DNA of 36,750 nucleotides from an uncultured Eubacteriales bacterium (lineage in GTDB: Bacteria; Bacillota; Clostridia; Oscillospirales; Acutalibacteraceae), in contig OMWP01000017.1 in NCBI GenBank assembly GCA_900314795.1, positions 1 through 36,750 of the forward strand, in the 5' to 3' direction. The position numbers and the translations under genes are program-made. Below the pieces are notes generated by a model that made no database searches, was not told where the DNA came from, and worked only from the letters and a program-made list of their open reading frames with translations. Numbering within the stretch: position 1 is the first letter of the stretch; every line of letters begins with the position of its first letter. Shown piece after piece: positions 1,802 through 36,668 of this stretch.

Positions 1802-2440
1802 TTATTGATAGTATAGTTTTTGATATAACTCATACGCGTTACCGACGCGCTCGACGTAAGTTGCTGTCTCCTCATATGGAATATTCGTCAGCGTAATGCC
1901 GTCGGGCGAGATGTTCGGATCCTGCAGCCAGCCATCCACGGTGGTGGTGCCGGCGTTATAGGCGGCGACAGCCGTCTGCCGGTTGCCGTATTTGTTGAGC
2001 AACACCGACAAAAGATAGGTGCCGTAGCGGATATTGATATCGGGATCCTTGAGCGATTCGGTGGTGTAGATCACCTGCCCGTCCAGACTCTCCTGCAGCC
2101 AGTCAAAGGTAGAGGGCATCAACTGCATCAGACCCTGTGCGCCGGCGGAGCTTTCCACATCAGCTCGAAAACCGCTTTCGGTACGAATGACCGCAAACAC
2201 GAGCGGCTCTTCCACGCCGAACTCGGTCGCGTATTTGTGCACCTGTTCGCCGTATTGCTGTTGATAAAAGAGTTTATATACCTTTCCCTTCGTTCCCTTA
2301 TAGTTTGTATCGGAAACGAAAAAGAATACCATCACCCCTACAAATAGCAAGAGGACAAATACTACGAGAAAGCCGATCGCTCCGTGTCCCTTGGTCTCGC
2401 GAGAACGTCGTGCGTGTCGTTCGCTGTATCTTCTGCTCAT
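1802..2440 (-). CDS. Membrane-anchored SLT-type lytic transglycosylase
   Basis: This is a 212-residue peptidoglycan lytic transglycosylase that cleaves glycan strands outside the membrane. A basic N-terminus (1-20) is followed by one membrane segment (about 21-43) and an Slt/goose-lysozyme-like domain. The catalytic Glu88 sits in AVIRTESGF, followed by GAQGLMQLMP and the AYNAG motif near residue 160. The size suits the short MltE/YjbJ-like group. Its ATG overlaps the TGA of the TsaC-CoaE gene (ATGA), indicating translational coupling. No strong Shine-Dalgarno is visible, which fits coupling. The stop codon directly abuts a heptamer repeat element. Confidence 0.92.
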   Translation of the reverse strand: MSRRYSERHARRSRETKGHGAIGFLVVFVLLLFVGVMVFFFVSDTNYKGTKGKVYKLFYQQQYGEQVHKYATEFGVEEPLVFAVIRTESGFRADVESSAGAQGLMQLMPSTFDWLQESLDGQVIYTTESLKDPDINIRYGTYLLSVLLNKYGNRQTAVAAYNAGTTTVDGWLQDPNISPDGITLTNIPYEETATYVERVGNAYELYQKLYYQ

Positions 2441-4056
2441 CCGCGCACCAGCCTTTCCTTATAATCCCGCACAGCGTTTTGGAAAGCATCGGCGGAACCG
2501 TTATTATATAGTATATCATCGCAGTGCGTAAGAAAGAACTCTTCGCTTAATTGAGCCGACATTCTCAACTCAGCCTCTTCCCTGTTCAGACCGTCACGCT
2601 GCATGATCCTTTCCCTACGGATCGCGGGATCGGCGAGCACACCGATGATGCGGTGACAGAATACATCCTGATGGGCTTCAAAGAGCTGGGACGCGTCAAA
2701 GATGACAGTATCACTCTCACACTCCTTTGCCTGTGCGAGCATGATCTCACTGATTTTGGGATGGGTGATATGATTGAGTGTTTCCGTGTTTTCGGGAGTC
2801 GAGAACGCGATCTTTGCAACAAGCTGCCTGTTGAGATTGCCGTCGGGTAACAACACATCACCGAACGCGGCGCACAGCATCGCCTTCACTTCGCTGTCCT
2901 CGACCGCGCGTCTGGCGGCTTCATCCGCGCTGATGACGGGGAGTCCGCATGCGCCGAGCAGTCTTGCCGCTTCACTCTTCCCCGCGCCGGTCTGTCCGGT
3001 CAAGCCGATGATCCGCTTCTCGGGCAGGTCGATGACCTCAAACGCCGCCGCACGGATCAAGCGGTTATACAGCGCCATACCGACGCCTGTCGCCTTGGGA
3101 CAGTGGGCATAAACGGTGTTCACATCGTCCAAATCATCCACGGCTCGGAGCGCGTCAAAGAGCGCCTGCGCCTGAGCCTTTTCATCTTCCATGCCGCCGA
3201 TCGTGATACAGGGCATGTCGAGCTGCGGCTTGTCCTCGTCGTAGCACAGCGCCGCAATATGCGGATCACGGGCGTACAGTCGATTCATGTATGTAATGTA
3301 ACGCTCGTCACTGCCGCGTAACAGTACGACCCGAGTGCGGGGCGCGTAGTGCTTGTACTTCATACCGGGTGACGAGGCTTTTTCATTGTTTTCCAATTGA
3401 TGGAGCACCGCGTGATCGACCTCGATCGCGCCGATCACCGCTTCGATCTCCTCACGCGTGATCAGCCCGGGTCGTAAAATGCGGGGCATATCGGTCGCGA
3501 GGGTGATGACAGTGCTCTCTACGCCGACAGAACAGCTGCCGCCGTCGATGACCGCCTCGATCCTGCCCTCCATGTCGTCGATGACATGCTGTGCCGTGGT
3601 CGGGCTGGGCTTGCCAGAGGTGTTGGCAGAAGGCGCCGCCAATGCCAGACCGCTTGTTTTGAGCAGTTTTTGCGCGTCGGGATGGGACGGGATTCGGATC
3701 GCCACGGTGCTCAGCCCCGCGCTGACTTCATCGGGGATCACATTCCCCTTGGGCATGATGATGGTGAGAGGTCCCGGCCAGAAGGCTTTGGCGAGCTTGA
3801 CCGCCTTTTCGGGGATCTCCGATACCAAACGGAGCCGCTTTATGTCGGAAAAATCCGCGACATGGACGATCAGCGGGTTATCCATCGGTCGACCCTTCGC
3901 CTCAAAAATACGGCGCACCGCCTCGCCGTCCAACGCGTTAGCCGCCAAGCCGTAAACCGTCTCGGTAGGCATAGCAACCAGACCGCCCTCACGCAGGATG
4001 GCGGATGCCGTTTCAATATCCGATTGTGTGTTGGTTAAATGCAGTGTTTTCATCAT
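2437..4056 (-). CDS. tsaC-coaE: TsaC/Sua5 threonylcarbamoyl-AMP synthase fused to dephospho-CoA kinase
   Basis: This 539-residue protein joins two normally separate enzymes. Residues about 13-200 are a YrdC/Sua5 domain (PTETVYGLAANA, SANTSGKPSPT) that makes threonylcarbamoyl-AMP for the tRNA t6A modification. Residues about 228-342 are a Sua5-type C-terminal domain introduced by the typical SPGMKYKHYAP linker. Residues about 348-539 are CoaE, with the P-loop GLTGQTGAGKS at 351-361, and catalyse the last step of CoA synthesis. The frame is open throughout with no internal Shine-Dalgarno obvious to me, so a true fusion is likely. The start is ATG-ATG at 4051-4056. An inverted-repeat element ends only 7 bp upstream and no good ribosome binding site remains. 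The prfA-TsaC order resembles the common Firmicute prfA-prmC-sua5 neighbourhood, here without prmC. Confidence 0.93.
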   Translation of the reverse strand: MMKTLHLTNTQSDIETASAILREGGLVAMPTETVYGLAANALDGEAVRRIFEAKGRPMDNPLIVHVADFSDIKRLRLVSEIPEKAVKLAKAFWPGPLTIIMPKGNVIPDEVSAGLSTVAIRIPSHPDAQKLLKTSGLALAAPSANTSGKPSPTTAQHVIDDMEGRIEAVIDGGSCSVGVESTVITLATDMPRILRPGLITREEIEAVIGAIEVDHAVLHQLENNEKASSPGMKYKHYAPRTRVVLLRGSDERYITYMNRLYARDPHIAALCYDEDKPQLDMPCITIGGMEDEKAQAQALFDALRAVDDLDDVNTVYAHCPKATGVGMALYNRLIRAAAFEVIDLPEKRIIGLTGQTGAGKSEAARLLGACGLPVISADEAARRAVEDSEVKAMLCAAFGDVLLPDGNLNRQLVAKIAFSTPENTETLNHITHPKISEIMLAQAKECESDTVIFDASQLFEAHQDVFCHRIIGVLADPAIRRERIMQRDGLNREEAELRMSAQLSEEFFLTHCDDILYNNGSADAFQNAVRDYKERLVRG

Positions 4057-8178: not shown

Positions 8179-10503
8179 TTACTGCCATCCACCGGATCTG
8201 ACTTCCTCATAAGTGTAAGTTTTTATCGAGTATTTAAAAGATCGAAACGATCCGGAGGAAGAGTCTTTTACATAGGTCGCATTGATAAACGCGTTATACA
8301 AACTTGAATTCGAAGTCTTCGACTTCATCTTATATTCAACATGTGAGGCTGATGATGAATCCTCTAACAAATCCATCACCAATTCCGTATGCCACTCTCC
8401 GTTTTTGATATAATGATAATGATACGCGGCATATCCTGTATGAGCTGCCGTGGTAAAAACACCTCTGAATTCAGAATCCGGTGCGTATGCACCTATCGAG
8501 CCAAACAGACCTTTAAACATCAAATAAGAGACCTTGCCGTTTTTTGCAGTAAATATCACATGATGATTGTTTGCGGCGGCATAACCGACATTAATGATCA
8601 GTTCCGGAACGCCATCATCATCAAGATCATATACAGAATAGTAATGGGTATCTGATTTAAACGCACTCGGTACATAGCTTAAGTATGTTTTGTTCGACAC
8701 ATAATCTCTATACAAAGTTGACCAATCGTTAAACGCATACCTCCAGCCGGACGTATGGAACCAACTGGTAAACCAACCGTTGACATTGACGCATCTGACC
8801 GTATAGGTGTAGTTGCCGCCGTTGCTGACGTCGGTATCGAGATAGGTGTTCTCTGTCGCTTCCGCCATCTTGGTCCAGCCGCCGTTGCTGTTCTTGTAGT
8901 AGACACGGTATCTTGTCGCTCCAGCAGGCGCGTTCCATGTGATCCGAACGCCGCCCGCAGCACTTTCGAGCTTTGTGATCTGCGGTGCATCCACATAGGT
9001 GTGGGATGTTTCGGTGCTGTAGCCGCTTGCAAAATCACCGCTCTTTGCCGCGAGACATCTCACCGCGTAGGTGTAGGTAGAGCCGCCTTTGACAACGTCA
9101 TCGACAAAGCTCGTTCCCGTCGTTTCACCCATCTCGACCCAGTTATTGTTCCTGTTTTTGTAGTAGACCTTATATTTGTTCACGCTCGAAACAGGCTCCC
9201 AGTAGATCCTGACGCCGTTATTGATCGTCTCACATTTTGTGATAACAGGCGCGGACAGCTTTGGGTCATACTTGTACCGCCATCCCGCGCCGTTAAAGCC
9301 GCTGGTGAATCGAGAACCATCAGAGGTGATCGCGCGAACCGTGTAGCGATAAGTCACTCCGATGCGCACATCCGTATCGGTAAAGCTCGTACCCGTTGTT
9401 TCGCCCATTCGTGTCCAGCCCTTGCTGCCGTAGTAATAGACACAGTACTTAGCCGCTCCGATCGGATCCCATGCGATCACCACCCCTTTGCCCGTGCTGC
9501 TCAACGAAGTGATCTCAGGATCGTCGTAGTAATAGGTATATTGCCATCCGTTCGTGTCAAAGTCACTGGTAAAGGCTTTTCCGTCAGCGGAAACACACCT
9601 CACCGTATAGGTGTAGGTGTAGCCATACGCGACGTCACTGTCCACATAGCTTGTCCCGGACGTCTCGACCATCCGCACCCAGTTACCGCTTCTATTTTTA
9701 TAATACACACGGTATTTGGCGGCATAATCGACCTTGTTCCATTTGATGCTGACGCCGTTCGATGCGGTGCTCAACTCATTGATGCGAGGCTTGACAAGAT
9801 AGTGTTTATGCTTCCAACCGGTCGAGTTGAAGTCGCTGGTAAAGCGCCCGTTTTCATTGACGCACCTGACCGTGTAAGTATAGCGATAGCCAAAAGCGAC
9901 GTCCATATCCAAATAGCTTGTATCGGTCGTCTCCGTCATTCTTGTCCATCCTCTGCTGCCGTAATAATAGACACGGTAGCGGGACGCGTTAGGGACCTTT
10001 TCCCATGTGATCCGCACGCCCTTGTCGGTACTGACAAGGCTCGTGATCTGAGGCGTTGCCATGTTATAGGTGTATTGCCGACCGGTGGTATCCATCTCGC
10101 TCGTGACCTGAGAACCGTCCTCACTGACGCATTGCACCGAATAAGTGTAGGTGTGACCTGATCCGACATCCGTATCGATGAACGAGGTGTCAGCGGTATC
10201 GTCCATGGAAGTCCAACCGTTTCTGCCTTTGTAATACACGCGGTATTTTGCCGCACCGGGCACCTCTGCCCATGTGATCTTCACACCCTCGTCAAGGCTG
10301 TCAAAGCCGGTGATCTGAGGCGCAGGGAGCAGCGCTGTTTCTTCATTTTGCACAGCAGGATCCATCTGAAAGCCTTGTTCCGTGATCGATGCGCCCTTAT
10401 CGGCGTTGCCGATCTCCTGAGCCGACGTCTGCACCATAAAAAGCGCGAGCATCATACTCAAGCAAGCAATCAGTATCGTGATAACAGGTTTTTTTCGCAG
10501 CAT
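8179..10503 (-). CDS. Secreted protein with six Fn3-like repeats and a C-terminal Ca-binding-like domain
   Basis: The 774-residue protein begins with a signal peptide (MLRKKPVITILIACLSMMLA, cleavage probably after TSA). Six repeats of about 85-90 residues follow, each with the pattern PxIT..S...GV.I.W..V..A..YRVYYK....W..M, then TSY.D.DV..G..Y.YTVRCV and a GW-type end. The C-terminal part (from about residue 590) carries YDLDDDGVPELII, an Asp-rich loop resembling calcium-binding motifs in Clostridial surface proteins. The start at 10501-10503 is set by GGAGG upstream; a longer frame to 10581 would overlap the promoter -35. No enzyme domain is recognised. Binding to carbohydrate or wall is a guess. 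The repeats are clearly related to those of the gene at 33354-36668. Confidence 0.88.
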   Translation of the reverse strand: MLRKKPVITILIACLSMMLALFMVQTSAQEIGNADKGASITEQGFQMDPAVQNEETALLPAPQITGFDSLDEGVKITWAEVPGAAKYRVYYKGRNGWTSMDDTADTSFIDTDVGSGHTYTYSVQCVSEDGSQVTSEMDTTGRQYTYNMATPQITSLVSTDKGVRITWEKVPNASRYRVYYYGSRGWTRMTETTDTSYLDMDVAFGYRYTYTVRCVNENGRFTSDFNSTGWKHKHYLVKPRINELSTASNGVSIKWNKVDYAAKYRVYYKNRSGNWVRMVETSGTSYVDSDVAYGYTYTYTVRCVSADGKAFTSDFDTNGWQYTYYYDDPEITSLSSTGKGVVIAWDPIGAAKYCVYYYGSKGWTRMGETTGTSFTDTDVRIGVTYRYTVRAITSDGSRFTSGFNGAGWRYKYDPKLSAPVITKCETINNGVRIYWEPVSSVNKYKVYYKNRNNNWVEMGETTGTSFVDDVVKGGSTYTYAVRCLAAKSGDFASGYSTETSHTYVDAPQITKLESAAGGVRITWNAPAGATRYRVYYKNSNGGWTKMAEATENTYLDTDVSNGGNYTYTVRCVNVNGWFTSWFHTSGWRYAFNDWSTLYRDYVSNKTYLSYVPSAFKSDTHYYSVYDLDDDGVPELIINVGYAAANNHHVIFTAKNGKVSYLMFKGLFGSIGAYAPDSEFRGVFTTAAHTGYAAYHYHYIKNGEWHTELVMDLLEDSSSASHVEYKMKSKTSNSSLYNAFINATYVKDSSSGSFRSFKYSIKTYTYEEVRSGGWQ

Positions 10504-10552
10504 GATTGTTCCTCCGTTCGTTGTTGATAGGGTGCCCACTGTTCTTATTTTC

Positions 10553-10581
10553 ATCATATCATAAATGAAAGCGCATGACAA
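10553..10581 (-). promoter_or_regulatory. Sigma-A promoter for the Fn3-repeat gene
   Basis: On the minus strand TTGTCA (10576-10581), a 17-bp spacer and TATGAT (10553-10558) give a near-consensus promoter about 50 bp before the chosen ATG. Confidence 0.75.
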
Positions 10582-13689: not shown

Positions 13690-13815
13690 AATAGTTACCT
13701 CCGTAAAAGTAATAGTTTTTATGTTAAGTCAAAGATAGTGAGAGACTCTCTGTTACAGTGTTGATTCTGCTTTTTCGTTTCTCCCTGACGACATATCTCT
13801 ACGCAATGATTTATG

Positions 13816-13973
13816 TAAAATACCTTCCGAGTATTACTGAAAGCTGCCCCTTGCAGCCTATTAATGAAACCACCGTGCGTGATTTCGGTTAAGTTTGCGT
13901 ATTTGCCGTGGCAGCATCCGCCGAATCTTTCGATAACCGCCAAACCTCGTCAACCAATTACGGTCCCGGCGCT
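13816..13973 (-). ncRNA. glmS-type self-cleaving ribozyme in the nagB leader
   Basis: Read on the minus strand, the conserved glmS ribozyme core is present in order: A|GCGCC (cleavage expected between 13973 and 13972), GGGACC..GGT (short P1), GTTGACGAGG, GGTTATCGA, and TTCGGCGGATGC. The P2 strands are TGGCGG and CTGCCA, differing from the Bacillus subtilis GGAGG/CCUCC while staying paired. GCGCC can pair with GGCG as in P2.2. Peripheral hairpins follow: GAAATCAC..GTGGTTTC near 13866-13886, GCTGC..GCAGC at 13843-13857, and AATAC..GTATT at 13819-13835. The RNA senses glucosamine-6-phosphate as cofactor and cleaves, destabilising the mRNA. The 3' limit is approximate. The remaining leader, 13690-13815, holds no further recognised motif besides the nagB ribosome binding site. 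Confidence 0.93.
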
Positions 13974-14044
13974 AACAGACCTCATAACCTCCTTTGGGAG
14001 GGCTGTTTTAATGTACAGCATATAGGAATACACTATACGTTAAA

Positions 14045-14073
14045 AGTTTATCATAAGCAGGGGTAAAAGTCAA
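14045..14073 (-). promoter_or_regulatory. Sigma-A promoter of the ribozyme-nagB-glmM operon
   Basis: On the minus strand TTGACT (14068-14073), a 17-bp spacer and TAAACT (14045-14050) point into the ribozyme. The transcript would begin about 65 nt before the cleavage site and carry a leader of about 350 nt. A CCTCC..GGAGG hairpin lies between promoter and ribozyme (about 13985-14002). Confidence 0.7.
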
Positions 14074-14356: not shown

Positions 14357-15364
14357 TCAATACCCTTTCGGATTATTCTTCTGCCAGTTCCAGCTATCGC
14401 GGCACATGTCCTCGATGCCGTACTTTGCGGTCCAGTGCAGTCCTTCCTTCGCCTTGGCGGGGTCGGCGTAGCACTCGGCTACATCACCCGCACGACGAGG
14501 CTTGATATCATAAGGGATCTCAATATCATTCACACGCATGAAGGCATTCACGATATCCAGTACACTGTAGCCGACGCCGGTACCGAGGTTGAATATCTCA
14601 GTGCCCTTGTGCTCAGCGGCGTACTCGATCGCTTTGACGTGACCCTGCGCCAGATCGACGACATGGATGTAGTCGCGCACACCGGTGCCGTCATGGGTAG
14701 GATAATCGTTGCCGAATACGCCGAGGCGTTCGAGCTTGCCGACAGCCACCTGCGTAATATAGGGCATGAGGTTATTGGGGATGCCGTTGGGGTTCTCACC
14801 GATCAGACCGCTCTTGTGCGCGCCGATGGGATTGAAATAGCGCAGCAGTACCACGCTCAGGTCGGGATCGGCGGTCGCAGCGTCGGTCAGGATCTGCTCA
14901 TTCATGTATTTTGTCCAGCCGTAGGGGTTGGTACAAGAGGTCGGCATGCCCTCTTTTAGCGGTACTTCCTCGGGGATTCCGTAGACGGTCGCCGACGAAC
15001 TGAACACTATGTTATGCACACCGCGCTTTTTCATCACCTCTAAGAGGGTGAGGGTGGTGTCGATATTGTTGCGATAGTAGCGCACGGGGATGGCACAGCT
15101 CTCGCCTACTGCCTTGAGTCCCGCAAAATGCACCACCGCGTCAAAGCTCTCTCTCTGGAACATCGCGTCCACCGCGGAGCGATCCGCGACATCCAGCTCA
15201 TAGAGGATGGGGCGGGTGCCGGTGATGGTCTCGATACGGTCGAGCACCTTGGGCGAGCTGTTGTCAAAGTTATCGGCAATGACGACCTCGTAGCCCGCTT
15301 CGATCATTTCGACGGCAGTGTGGCTGCCGATATATCCGGCGCCGCCGGTCAGTAATACTTTCAT
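14357..15364 (-). CDS. galE: UDP-glucose 4-epimerase
   Basis: This 335-residue short-chain dehydrogenase-fold epimerase interconverts UDP-glucose and UDP-galactose, and in some cases the N-acetyl forms. TGGAGYIGS (6-14) binds NAD. Ser124 in FSSSATVYG and the Y148xxxK152 pair form the active site. RYFNPIGAH and the C-terminal KPRRAGDVAECYAD are typical. AGGAGG precedes the ATG at 15362-15364. It is downstream of the CapD-like gene on the same strand, separated by heptamer element copy 4, and could be read from the promoter at 17484-17512. Confidence 0.96.
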   Translation of the reverse strand: MKVLLTGGAGYIGSHTAVEMIEAGYEVVIADNFDNSSPKVLDRIETITGTRPILYELDVADRSAVDAMFQRESFDAVVHFAGLKAVGESCAIPVRYYRNNIDTTLTLLEVMKKRGVHNIVFSSSATVYGIPEEVPLKEGMPTSCTNPYGWTKYMNEQILTDAATADPDLSVVLLRYFNPIGAHKSGLIGENPNGIPNNLMPYITQVAVGKLERLGVFGNDYPTHDGTGVRDYIHVVDLAQGHVKAIEYAAEHKGTEIFNLGTGVGYSVLDIVNAFMRVNDIEIPYDIKPRRAGDVAECYADPAKAKEGLHWTAKYGIEDMCRDSWNWQKNNPKGY

Positions 15365-24752: not shown

Positions 24753-24870
<118 letters not shown>

Positions 24871-33180: not shown

Positions 33181-33353
33181 TAGATGCTCGCTGATAAAGC
33201 CCTCCGTTTTGAGCGGTGAAAAAGATTTTTACAGATATTGTCAATTTTGATTGTATTAGCGGGATTTATGTGGTAAACTGGTAGTGTATGAAATCATACC
33301 CGCACCATCTCCTTCGGATGACTGCGGGAACAAAAACGAGGAAGTGTAGAACA

Positions 33354-36300
33354 ATGAAAGTATGGAAAAAGGGCGTGTCCCTGCTGTTGTCGATCCTCAT
33401 GGTGTTGACACTGATGACGGTCGGTATCGTACCCGCTACGCTGAGCGCGAGCGCGGCGAGCTGGAACGGCTATAACAACGGCGGCGGCACACTCTACGGC
33501 TCCCAATCCTTTTTAGAGGCATTCGGCATCGACTATGACGAATACATGCACTGGATGGACACCCATGACGCGGACAGCGCCAACCCCAACTACTACTTAG
33601 GCACACCCTATGCGCACAACGATCACCGCAACCCGCAGGGCGACTGCTCAGGCGCACGCGGCGCATATGACACCCCCGGTGTGGCGGCGATGAACTGCAC
33701 GGGCTTTGTGTGGCATGTCCTGTACAAATCCGCGGTCGCGTCCGGCGCTCCGAGCTACAAGATCAACCGACTCAGCGTCATGGCGGGCGTACCGCAATCC
33801 TGGACTTACTACGACGTCAACCGCATCTGGTTCGACTCCGTCGACGACGCCTATGCCTCCGGCGTGCTGGAGAAGGGCGATCTGATGTGGCTGTACGGCA
33901 CCGGCGACAACCACAACGCGATCTTCTACGGCGACAGCCCCAAGGACTGGATCTACTGGGACAGCGCCGGTGAACGCAACCGCTACTGTGAAGTTCACGC
34001 GATCGGCGAGAGCCGCGGTCTGTGGGTCGCCAAGGTCACCCAGCCCAACAGGATCGAGCTGCAGATCGACACACCCTCCGGCGGCAAGGGTACCAAATTC
34101 GGCACTAAATATATGGTGTTCAGCAGCAAAGAAAAGGCACAGAACGCGCTCGATCATCCCGACAGCGATTATTACTGGGATCAGCGCGAGGGCACCATCG
34201 TGCTCGACAGCAACGGTCACGGATGCTTCCGCAAGCAGAGCGCACCCTCCGCGTCCGAGCTGTGGTCGGGCAACACGCCGCGTACCAATCACAGCTACTT
34301 TAAATCGGACGCAAAAAGAGTGAACTCCCAAAACACCTACTACGCGGTACAGTGGAGCCACGGCTCGGGTATCTCCGAGGATACCACGATCCACACCTTT
34401 ACCGACTCCGGTAAGCGCACGCCCTCCGGCTATCGCATCTATCGCTTCTATGCACCGATCCATGTCGACACGCCCCAATTTGACAGTATCGACAGCACCA
34501 GCGACGGTGTACTGATGAAATGGAGCGCCGTCAAGGACGCGTACAAATACCGCATCTACTATAAGAACAGAAATAACGAATGGACCCGTATGGCAGAGAC
34601 CGCCTCGACCTCTTACCTCGATAAGGACGTCAAAAACGGTTCCTCCTACACCTACACCATCCGCTGTGTCGACCGCTACGGCAACCTGATCAGCGACTAT
34701 GACACAAACGGTACAAAGCATACTTACCGTATCTTAGACACCCCTGAGTTCACCCGTCTTGAGAGCACCCCGGAGGGCGTCAAGCTCACATGGAACGCTG
34801 TCAAGAATACCCTCTCTGACGCCGACACCCGATACCGCGTCTACTACAAGAGCGCCAAATACGGATGGAAGATGATGACGGAGACCACCGACACTACCTT
34901 TACGGATACCGATATCACCAACAACGGCACCTATACCTATACGATCCGATGTGTTGACGAAAATGGTAATTTTGTCAGCAAATACAACACCACGGGTTGG
35001 AAGTATACCTATTCGGGTGTAAACACACCGCAGATCACCCAAACGGTCAGCGAGCCCGAGGGCATCCGCCTGCATTGGGATACGTCCGATAACGTCCACG
35101 CTTACCGCATCTATCGCCGATCGAGCGACGGCTGGCTGCGGATCGCCGAAACAAGCGCTGACGAATACCTTGATATGGATCTCACTCCCGGCGAAACCAC
35201 CACCTACACCATTCGCTGCGTCAACAGCAAGGGCAAATTTGTCAGCGACTTTAATACAAACGGCTGGCGCGTCAAGTACAAGGGCATCGATACACCGCAG
35301 ATCACCGAAATCACCGCACAGTATGACGGCGTCAGCATGACATGGGACGCAGTCGAGAACGCGGTCAAATACCGCGTCTACCGCAAGACCCCCGGCAAGG
35401 GCTGGACACGGATCGCGGAGCTTTCCGACACCGCTTACTTTGACGGCGACATCGAAGAGAACACCGACTATCTCTACACCATTCGCTGTGTCAACGATAA
35501 GGGCGGCTTTATGAGCGGCTTTAACAAAGACGGCTGGAAGGTTCACTATCAGGGCGTCGATAATCCGCAGATCACCGAAATCACCGCACAGTATGACGGC
35601 GTCAGCATGACATGGGACGCGGTCGAGAACGCGGTCAGCTACCGTGTCTACCGTAAGCTCCCCGGCGGCAGCTGGACGAGGATCGCTCAGCTCTCCGACA
35701 CCTCCTACTTTGACGGCAATATCACACAAAACACCGACTATCTCTACACCGTGCGCTGTGTCAACGAGCAAGGCGGCTTCATGAGCGGCTACAACAAGGA
35801 TGGTTGGAAGATCAGCTACAAGGGCGTTGACACCCCGCAGATCGCCGAGATCGGCAGCAACGCCGACGGCATCCGCTTCACATGGGAGCCTGTCGAGGGC
35901 GCGGTCAACTATCGCGTCTACCGCAAGACTCCCGGCAAGGGCTGGACGAGGATCGCGGAACAGACCGACACCGAGTATCTTGACATCGACTGTCAGCTGA
36001 ACACGGCATACATCTATACCGTTCGCTGCGTCAACGAGCAGGGCGGCTTTATGAGCGACTACAACAAAGACGGATGGAAGGCGACCTACAACGGCGTTGT
36101 GAACCCCGCATTCACCGAGGTCAAGAACGAGCCCGAGGGCATTCGCCTGACATGGAACGCCATTGACGGCGTGACCGCCTACCGCGTCTATGCCCGCGGC
36201 GCCAACGGCTGGGATCGCCTGATCGAAACGAAGGACACTACGTTCTTTGACGACAAGATCCCCTTCGGCACAACCCGCCGCTACACCATCCGCGCGATCA

Positions 36301-36668
36301 ACAATCACGGCGGCTTTGCGAGCGATTTCAACGAGCAGGGCTGGACGATCACCTACACCGGCGTTGACACCCCGCAGATCACCTCGCTCGAGAGCACCGC
36401 AGACGGTGTAAGGATCACATGGGATCCCGTAGAAGGCGCTGTGCAATATCGCGTATTCTACAAGGGCGCTGACGGCTGGGAACGCCTCGCTGTCACCGAC
36501 GGCACCGAGTTTGTCGATATCTCCGCACAGGCAGGCAGCACCTACATCTACACGGTGCGCTGCTTGGGCAGCAAGGACAACTACATCAGCGACTACGATC
36601 ACACCGGCGGCAAGATCGAGTATCAGCCGCCGGTCGAGCCCGAGCCGACTGATACTAAGTATCATTAA
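33354..36668 (+). CDS. Secreted NlpC/P60-like protein with eight Fn3-like repeats
   Basis: The 1104-residue protein starts with a signal peptide (MKVWKKGVSLLLSILMVLTL, cleavage after ASA). The N-terminal domain has MNCTGFVWHVLY with Cys115 and GDNHNAIFYG with His187, the order of Cys and His in NlpC/P60 cysteine peptidases that cut wall peptides. From about residue 370 eight repeats of about 90 residues run to the end (TPQIT..S...GVR.TWD.VE.AV.YRVYRK...GWTRIAE.. YLYT.RCVN..G.F.S.FN..GW). Repeats 4 and 5 are nearly identical in DNA (from 35298 and 35568, 270 bp apart), showing recent internal duplication. The repeats match those in the gene at 8179-10503. GAGGAAG lies upstream of the ATG at 33354; the frame from 33288 is not preferred. 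The remaining 36669-36750 shows nothing recognisable. Confidence 0.85.
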   Translation: MKVWKKGVSLLLSILMVLTLMTVGIVPATLSASAASWNGYNNGGGTLYGSQSFLEAFGIDYDEYMHWMDTHDADSANPNYYLGTPYAHNDHRNPQGDCSGARGAYDTPGVAAMNCTGFVWHVLYKSAVASGAPSYKINRLSVMAGVPQSWTYYDVNRIWFDSVDDAYASGVLEKGDLMWLYGTGDNHNAIFYGDSPKDWIYWDSAGERNRYCEVHAIGESRGLWVAKVTQPNRIELQIDTPSGGKGTKFGTKYMVFSSKEKAQNALDHPDSDYYWDQREGTIVLDSNGHGCFRKQSAPSASELWSGNTPRTNHSYFKSDAKRVNSQNTYYAVQWSHGSGISEDTTIHTFTDSGKRTPSGYRIYRFYAPIHVDTPQFDSIDSTSDGVLMKWSAVKDAYKYRIYYKNRNNEWTRMAETASTSYLDKDVKNGSSYTYTIRCVDRYGNLISDYDTNGTKHTYRILDTPEFTRLESTPEGVKLTWNAVKNTLSDADTRYRVYYKSAKYGWKMMTETTDTTFTDTDITNNGTYTYTIRCVDENGNFVSKYNTTGWKYTYSGVNTPQITQTVSEPEGIRLHWDTSDNVHAYRIYRRSSDGWLRIAETSADEYLDMDLTPGETTTYTIRCVNSKGKFVSDFNTNGWRVKYKGIDTPQITEITAQYDGVSMTWDAVENAVKYRVYRKTPGKGWTRIAELSDTAYFDGDIEENTDYLYTIRCVNDKGGFMSGFNKDGWKVHYQGVDNPQITEITAQYDGVSMTWDAVENAVSYRVYRKLPGGSWTRIAQLSDTSYFDGNITQNTDYLYTVRCVNEQGGFMSGYNKDGWKISYKGVDTPQIAEIGSNADGIRFTWEPVEGAVNYRVYRKTPGKGWTRIAEQTDTEYLDIDCQLNTAYIYTVRCVNEQGGFMSDYNKDGWKATYNGVVNPAFTEVKNEPEGIRLTWNAIDGVTAYRVYARGANGWDRLIETKDTTFFDDKIPFGTTRRYTIRAINNHGGFASDFNEQGWTITYTGVDTPQITSLESTADGVRITWDPVEGAVQYRVFYKGADGWERLAVTDGTEFVDISAQAGSTYIYTVRCLGSKDNYISDYDHTGGKIEYQPPVEPEPTDTKYH

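Follow-up and report, generated by a model that had tools for sequence, protein, structure and literature searches.

Background

The glmS riboswitch of Rfam family RF00234, of the type known from B. subtilis and T. tengcongensis, consists of conserved core blocks and the helices P1, P2, P3, P3.1, P4 and P4.1. It occupies an operon leader, usually though not by definition the 5′ UTR of glmS, and its presumed cofactor is glucosamine-6-phosphate (GlcN6P). For the B. subtilis glmS transcript, the excerpted text of PMC3997798 reports that RNase J1 degrades the 5′-OH product once cleavage has occurred. According to the excerpts of PMC4281351 and PMC5902328, the deaminase NagB serves catabolism in most organisms; in S. 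mutans it opposes GlmS (PMC3306399, excerpted text). In Akkermansia, which is without GlmS, NagB is unable to make GlcN6P at physiological levels, with Km values of 5.5 mM for Fru6P and 41 mM for NH4 (PMC5902328, excerpted text). An anabolic NagB is reported for Giardia in the excerpted text of PMC4281351, where the GlcN6P synthase of Giardia and Entamoeba is given as absent.

Here we describe a glmS-class ribozyme that stands before nagB in the window, the whole 36,750-nt stretch of DNA analysed (contig OMWP01000017.1 of an uncultured Eubacteriales bacterium). It shares with RF00234 the core blocks, all of the helices named above, the operon-leader position and the presumed cofactor, and differs in its place before nagB rather than glmS, in a P3 apical part of 112 nt in the window, and in a hairpin with a Shine-Dalgarno-like motif, here called P0, 5′ of the cleavage site. 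The synthesis of GlcN6P by NagB that we propose is the reaction reported for Giardia and Entamoeba (PMC4281351, excerpted text). Here, however, the enzyme is bacterial, belongs to a glmM operon under ribozyme control, often has an intact glmS alongside, and has a synthetic role by proposal.

Identity and structure of the ribozyme

The preliminary description of the window had placed a glmS-type ribozyme core on the minus strand, and this is borne out by an RF00234 match, by the conserved blocks and by covariation in relatives. The match covers minus-strand positions 13861-13984, from the first to the last model position, with an E-value of 6.4e-7 when 711 bases were searched and of 5.6e-7 over the whole genome, and is the only one at E 0.001 in the 2.5-Mb genome of the window. 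The E-value is significant, yet the score of 36.6 bits lies under the curators' gathering score of 37. Because of this 0.4-bit difference the ribozyme is missing from the default Rfam table and appears only under an E-value threshold. The default scan of the window returns 5S rRNA alone (24754-24870, minus strand), with no other Rfam family over its cut-off and hence no 16S or 23S rRNA match.

The low score is explained by about 100 extra nucleotides in P3, which split the match. A model built from 19 relatives without large P3 insertions, with the window left out, recovers the 5′ half at 13862-13987 (79.2 bits) and the 3′ half at 13733-13865 (43.5 bits). RF00234 itself scores above its cut-off, at 39.3-68.5 bits, in 15 genomes of a genus sample of 39, among them G409 (39.3 bits) and G185 (67.4 bits), both with nagB beside the ribozyme. 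Judged by sequence, 13734-13973 is a glmS-class ribozyme (Table 1). The A-G bond earlier predicted for cleavage falls at the same place in the sequence and in the RF00234 alignment. The location proposed for the element likewise stands, while its 3′ limit, put at 13816, proved too short: 13734-13797 also belongs to the element and holds the 3′ strand of P3, P4, P4.1 and the partner strand of P3.1.

Table 1. Features of the ribozyme, its leader and the operon in the window
Feature	Position	Strand	Evidence
glmS-class ribozyme, whole	13734..13973	-	RF00234 and relatives' model
Predicted self-cleavage bond, A(-1) 13973 / G(+1) 13972	13972..13973	-	Sequence, RF00234 alignment
P1: 13962-13965 with 13952-13955	13952..13965	-	Sequence compared with relatives' alignment
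P2: 13937-13941 with 13910-13914, enclosing the UAUCGA...UUCGGCGGAUG core	13910..13941	-	Sequence, relatives' alignment, core blocks
P3: 13905-13908 with 13789-13792	13789..13908	-	Minimum-energy fold
P3.1 pseudoknot: 13794-13797 with 13734-13737	13734..13797	-	Sequence; helix covaries in relatives
P4: 13780-13785 with 13740-13745	13740..13785	-	Relatives' alignment, minimum-energy fold
P4.1: 13767-13769 with 13756-13758	within 13740..13785	-	Relatives' alignment, minimum-energy fold
Promoter-like pair TTGACT-17-TAAACT, start about 65 nt before the cleavage bond	14045..14073	-	Pattern match
P0 hairpin AACAG..CUGUU, ending at the cleavage site, in the 5′ fragment that cleavage would remove	13974..14007	-	Comparison
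AAGGAGG, Shine-Dalgarno-like motif, apical in P0	13988..13994	-	Comparison
nagB, glucosamine-6-phosphate deaminase family, 267 aa	12886..13689	-	TIGR00502, 378 bits (cut-off 237)
Left-handed beta-helix acetyltransferase, 218 aa	12225..12881	-	TIGR03992, E 4e-40, 138 bits (under cut-off 292)
glmM, phosphoglucosamine mutase, 448 aa	10873..12219	-	TIGR01455, 545 bits (cut-off 448)

Forty nagB-linked copies were extracted, 38 of them distinct. The alignment took in the 19 short copies and omitted the 19 longer ones, to which the window copy belongs. Across P1, P2, an inner P2 helix, P3, the P3.1 pseudoknot, P4 and P4.1, 96.1% of 588 cells in the alignment are paired, and two-sided changes occur at 18 of the 31 modelled pairs. 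None of 500 shuffles reaches this level of pairing and covariation, and with the 3′ partner slid out of place the paired fraction is 32-52%, a comparison that favours the real version over the slid ones in that the structure was drawn partly from the same 19 sequences. By minimum energy the window copy folds no better than shuffles (z -0.89), and the ribozyme claim therefore rests on covariance and comparison. In that fold the P3 apical part contains a helix UACGCAA/UUGCGUA and three small hairpins; the corresponding part spans about 12 nt in L037, and total ribozyme length differs among relatives.

The blocks AGCGCC, GACGAGG, AUCGA and UCGGCGGAU are common to nagB-linked copies and to glmS-linked copies of the same family, and appear in the window as AGCGCC.G, GACGAGG, UUAUCGA and UCGGCGGAUG. 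The core pattern, which itself requires part of these blocks, matched 37 of 40 nagB-linked and 18 of 29 glmS-linked copies, and the copies that it missed do not enter the blocks. The large P3 insertion and a score just short of the Rfam cut-off might be read as signs of a relic, or of a variant answering another ligand. We regard either as very improbable in view of the shared core blocks, the strong covariation and the 60 columns that are invariant in the alignment of 19 nagB-linked copies; in the excerpted text of PMC7125110, conservation of the glmS ribozyme core follows cleavage rate.

The promoter-like pair upstream is no evidence by itself, with one found against 1.9 expected in shuffles. 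By eye, TTGACT-17-TAAAAT recurs with equal spacing in the relatives L048/L091, L101 and L117.

The operon and its NagB

The ribozyme lies between galE (14357-15364) and nagB, whose ATG follows the cleavage bond at a distance of 283 nt. It is followed by nagB, the acetyltransferase gene and glmM, with intergenic gaps of 4 and 5 nt. The acetyltransferase resembles the C-terminal half of GlmU, and its family matches span that half only. By their sequences, the genes joined to the ribozyme are those for the steps from GlcN6P to GlcN1P and GlcNAc1P, with nagB in the place where glmS would be expected.

Of 80 named nagB loci, 32 have the ribozyme and 48 lack it. The window's order recurs in 18 of the 32, some of them cut in glmM by the contig end. 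In L102 the stretch ends just behind the acetyltransferase gene, and two loci are without that gene. Six put the acetyltransferase or glmM first (L092, L096, L103, L116, L118, L137), with the order ribozyme-glmM-nagB-glmS in L137. Five show nagB without a partner gene in the fetched stretch (L095, L097, L098, L112, L127). L276 and L277 likewise have ribozyme and nagB with neither partner seen, making seven such loci, although the sequence covered in L097, L276 and L277 extends no more than about 0.7 kb past nagB. All NagBs with at most 79% identity, L137 excepted, are found among the 48 ribozyme-free loci.

The NagB of the window contains the catalytic-residue motifs MDEY and DGHIAFNEP; in the E. 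coli enzyme we take the catalytic residues to be D72, D141, H143 and E148, and the GlcNAc6P allosteric site to be formed by R158, K160 and T161. The allosteric residues are not kept: G and R stand at the first two places in 73 of the 74 named NagBs that have the motif (32 of 32 with the ribozyme, 41 of 42 without), and the third place varies. As the change is alike with and without the ribozyme, it is uninformative on the switch.

Elsewhere in the window, the list of open reading frames contains two large secreted-looking proteins (8179-10581 and 33288-36668) with, by eye, many similar repeats of about 90 residues.

Conservation of the link to nagB

The earlier proposal that the ribozyme governs nagB instead of glmS is supported by a search of relatives for glmS ribozymes with nagB as the next gene, which shows the link to be conserved. 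In the genus of the window the ribozyme is present in 78 of 161 genomes, at 80 sites. At 79 of them nagB follows on the same strand, the two matches separated by 24-378 nt (median 50); the remaining site (G460) is at a contig edge. This type of nagB occurs in 79 genomes of the genus, and in G518 and G540, which gave no ribozyme match, the 5′ end of nagB is lost at a contig end. None of 30 glmS loci from the genus gave a convincing ribozyme match, the best reaching 18.2 bits (E 0.011).

In wider samples most sites lie before glmS. A family sample of 398 genomes yielded 37 ribozyme sites in 36 genomes: 30 before glmS and five before a nagB operon (G000 and G185, with G305, G352 and G244 from a second genus); of the other two, that of G123 stands behind glmM and the last extends past a contig end. 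An order-wide sample of 394 genomes under strict filters gave 82 with a match to the relatives' model, 70 of them before glmS, four before nagB (two in a second family) and eight before neither. The carriers are gut bacteria, relatives of Ruminococcus, in which the switch that elsewhere turns off glmS stands before nagB. Publications represented mostly by titles and the beginnings of abstracts, a set outside which the McCown 2011 and 2012 surveys fall, contain no earlier report of this arrangement that we could find, and none appears in the excerpts of PMC10668854, PMC11602151, PMC2258182, PMC7967978 and PMC10043782; an earlier mention in the two glmS ribozyme surveys of McCown and colleagues is quite possible.

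Other placements of the ribozyme

In five further loci of the order the ribozyme lies directly behind glmM or the acetyltransferase gene, namely L251 (1039-1190, G123), L319 (G686), L307 (G903), L347 (G858) and L312 (G671), and no glmS or nagB was found after any of these copies. Those of L251, L319, L307 and L347 are followed by what is, by eye, a terminator-like hairpin, and so look like 3′-UTR ribozymes. Repressing a maker of GlcN6P is therefore not the sole arrangement in the order. Free-standing glmS-class ribozymes with a terminator-like hairpin, again by eye, were also seen in L278, L279 and L282 (one genus) and in L317 (G663), all from one family of the order, with no match to glmS, nagB, glmM or the acetyltransferase in the stretch.

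The placements behind glmM or the acetyltransferase gene, together with the acetyltransferase or glmM standing first in six relatives and in G305, G352 and G244, raise the question of whether the target is the acetyltransferase-glmM pair or the whole operon, with nagB a passenger. Against such a reading, which we hold to be unlikely, stand the seven loci that have ribozyme and nagB with neither partner gene seen alongside, and a single genome, G529, in which acetyltransferase and glmM persist with a nagB remnant and without a ribozyme match (L265, 3071-5240). Ribozyme and nagB may have been lost together there.

Gene content and the direction of NagB

An off-switch set off by GlcN6P suits an enzyme that makes this compound and not one that breaks it down, and thus favours synthesis. 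The suggestion, made in the preliminary description, that NagB acts as a GlcN6P maker is supported by the gene context, that is, by the company of glmM, the acetyltransferase and in one case glmS, by the missing nagA and by carriers without an intact glmS; we consider that NagB probably makes GlcN6P in these bacteria. The more familiar alternative is an ordinary catabolic deaminase on which the ribozyme acts as a brake, for example to reserve GlcN6P for cell-wall synthesis while other sugars are available. This is the usual role of NagB in most organisms (PMC4281351 and PMC5902328, excerpted texts), and it agrees with the TIGR00502 equivalog score and with the closest solved structures, which are named glucosamine-6-phosphate deaminases. 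A substrate-triggered switch would nevertheless silence such an enzyme just when it is needed, and its gene lies with those of GlmM and the acetyltransferase, in one case also with glmS. We therefore judge a catabolic role improbable, the more so given the two observations that follow.

First, nagA exceeded the cut-off in none of the 161 genus genomes (best score 36 bits against 226), with 7 of 14 controls over it. Breakdown of GlcNAc-6-P via NagB is therefore unlikely; the absence of nagA does not exclude use of free glucosamine. Second, 23 of the 161 genomes have no glmS match at E 1e-37, and 17 of these retain a nagB: nine have the type described here, eight have a second nagB, and six have neither. 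The second type occurs in these eight genomes and in none of the 138 with a glmS match, and it stands directly behind glmM in six of the eight, six having been read.

The missing glmS genes come largely from incomplete metagenome-assembled genomes. Among genomes with this nagB whose completeness is 90% or more and whose contamination is 5% or less, only G545 (93%; glmS unmatched) and G185 (100%) are affected. In G185, glmS is broken into three frames (L248, 1602-3316) and the ribozyme and nagB are intact. Of the 32 named ribozyme genomes, for which completeness was not given, seven show no glmS, and one of the seven, L086, appears to be the same genome as G545. The absence of a glmS match is associated with both nagB types taken together (Fisher p 0.04, kinship ignored) and with the second type alone (Fisher p 5e-8, kinship ignored, the eight genomes being perhaps one clade). 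The genome of the window has an intact, ribozyme-free glmS, so that NagB need not be the source of GlcN6P there; this nagB and a glmS match at E 1e-37 occur together in 70 of 79 genomes, the window's included and the broken copy of G185 counted.

In L255, from a genus genome without glmS, a GlmM (2037-3656) has an N-terminal helix-turn-helix (HTH_3, E 3e-15) ahead of all four PGM_PMM domains and is followed by the second, divergent nagB. Similar GlmM N-termini were seen by eye in L257-L259, and L256-L259 likewise come from genus genomes without glmS. Such a GlmM is possibly an enzyme that regulates its own operon.

A hairpin upstream of the cleavage site

In nagB-linked copies P0 has the consensus AAYAG...CURUU, its 3′ strand ending at the cleavage site and AAGGAGG lying in its apical part. 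For the comparison 100 loci were offered; the core pattern was found in 76, and these yielded 64 different upstream sequences, the window among them. The ribozyme loci L116, L118, L218 and L230 were missed by the pattern and left out. A five-pair stem is possible in 54 of the 64 (16.5 expected with the rest shuffled), as against 14 of 68 glmS-linked copies (8.9 expected), and GGAG occurs at -34 to -9 in 61 of the 64 (15.4 expected) and in 11 of the 68, counts that are not independent because the sequences are related. The outer five pairs were selected for and thus provide no test. The inner four, unselected, are paired in 174 of 216 cells, compared with 146 ± 4 when re-dealt and 114-134 when slid.

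In 54 of the 64 copies, four or all five of the nucleotides just before A(-1) are paired in the minimum-energy fold, and GGAG is mostly unpaired in 35 of these 54 folds. The window belongs to the other ten: its minimum-energy fold does not form P0, because CCUCC (13996-14000) there pairs with the AAGGAGG motif and this pairing is preferred. Such a CCUCC-like sequence, pairing either with AGGAGG or with the cleavage-site strand, could make P0 a gate on cleavage through alternative folding rather than a stabiliser. The window, L037, L041 and L044 allow both pairings, and the minimum-energy fold takes the short one there. With the nucleotides before the cleavage site paired in most of the folds, and GGAG so often free in them, we think gating rather unlikely.

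A leader peptide encoded by a short reading frame (AGGAGGUUAUG in the window) behind the Shine-Dalgarno-like motif was considered and rejected, since ATG follows GGAG by 3-11 nt in four of the 54 P0 hairpins and any of three start codons does so in nine; so few starts argue against a general leader ORF. With a Shine-Dalgarno-like sequence in the 5′ UTR that in most copies is not followed by a start codon, P0 resembles the STAB-SD 5′ stabiliser, reportedly described by Agaisse and Lereclus in 1996 (cited in PMC3997798). The motif here is instead part of a hairpin that cleavage by the riboswitch would remove, and its function is a guess. Our best guess from these comparisons, one that we expect is wrong more often than right, is that P0 may be a ribosome-binding stabiliser shed on cleavage.

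Proposed mechanism

We propose that a glmS-class riboswitch provides GlcN6P feedback on the nagB-acetyltransferase-glmM operon, with NagB mainly synthetic and P0 a possible stabiliser, and assign this reading a probability of roughly 0.7. From the observed RNA family, structure, gene link and gene content we infer the cleavage, the ligand, the decay, the direction of NagB and the role of P0. NagB would mainly convert fructose-6-phosphate and ammonia to GlcN6P, GlmM would then form GlcN-1-P, and the acetyltransferase GlcNAc-1-P. Abundant GlcN6P would, as cofactor, bring about cleavage at 13973|13972; the 5′-OH mRNA would be degraded by RNase J1, and the operon would fall quiet. The hairpin with its AAGGAGG would guard the intact 5′ end and depart with the 5′ fragment on cleavage. 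The switch would thereby exert end-product feedback on the first step of UDP-GlcNAc synthesis, one that uses ammonia and works beside or instead of the glutamine-dependent GlmS. The full evolutionary picture, in which a degradative enzyme became an ammonia-fed GlcN6P synthase, the feedback ribozyme moved onto it, and a detachable, ribosome-binding hairpin that protects the mRNA until GlcN6P triggers cleavage became a second part of the switch, is one we offer tentatively and with less than even confidence.

Conclusions

If the proposed reading is correct, glmS ribozymes follow the step that makes GlcN6P and not GlmS itself, and the presence of the ribozyme in a genome would point to a NagB working in the reverse direction. 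P0 would be a novel kind of add-on to a self-cleaving riboswitch. Compounds targeted at GlmS could fail in such bacteria, whereas ribozyme activators would still act on the pathway. The natural synthesis of GlcN6P by a bacterial NagB, an old question, would then become directly testable in rumen bacteria.
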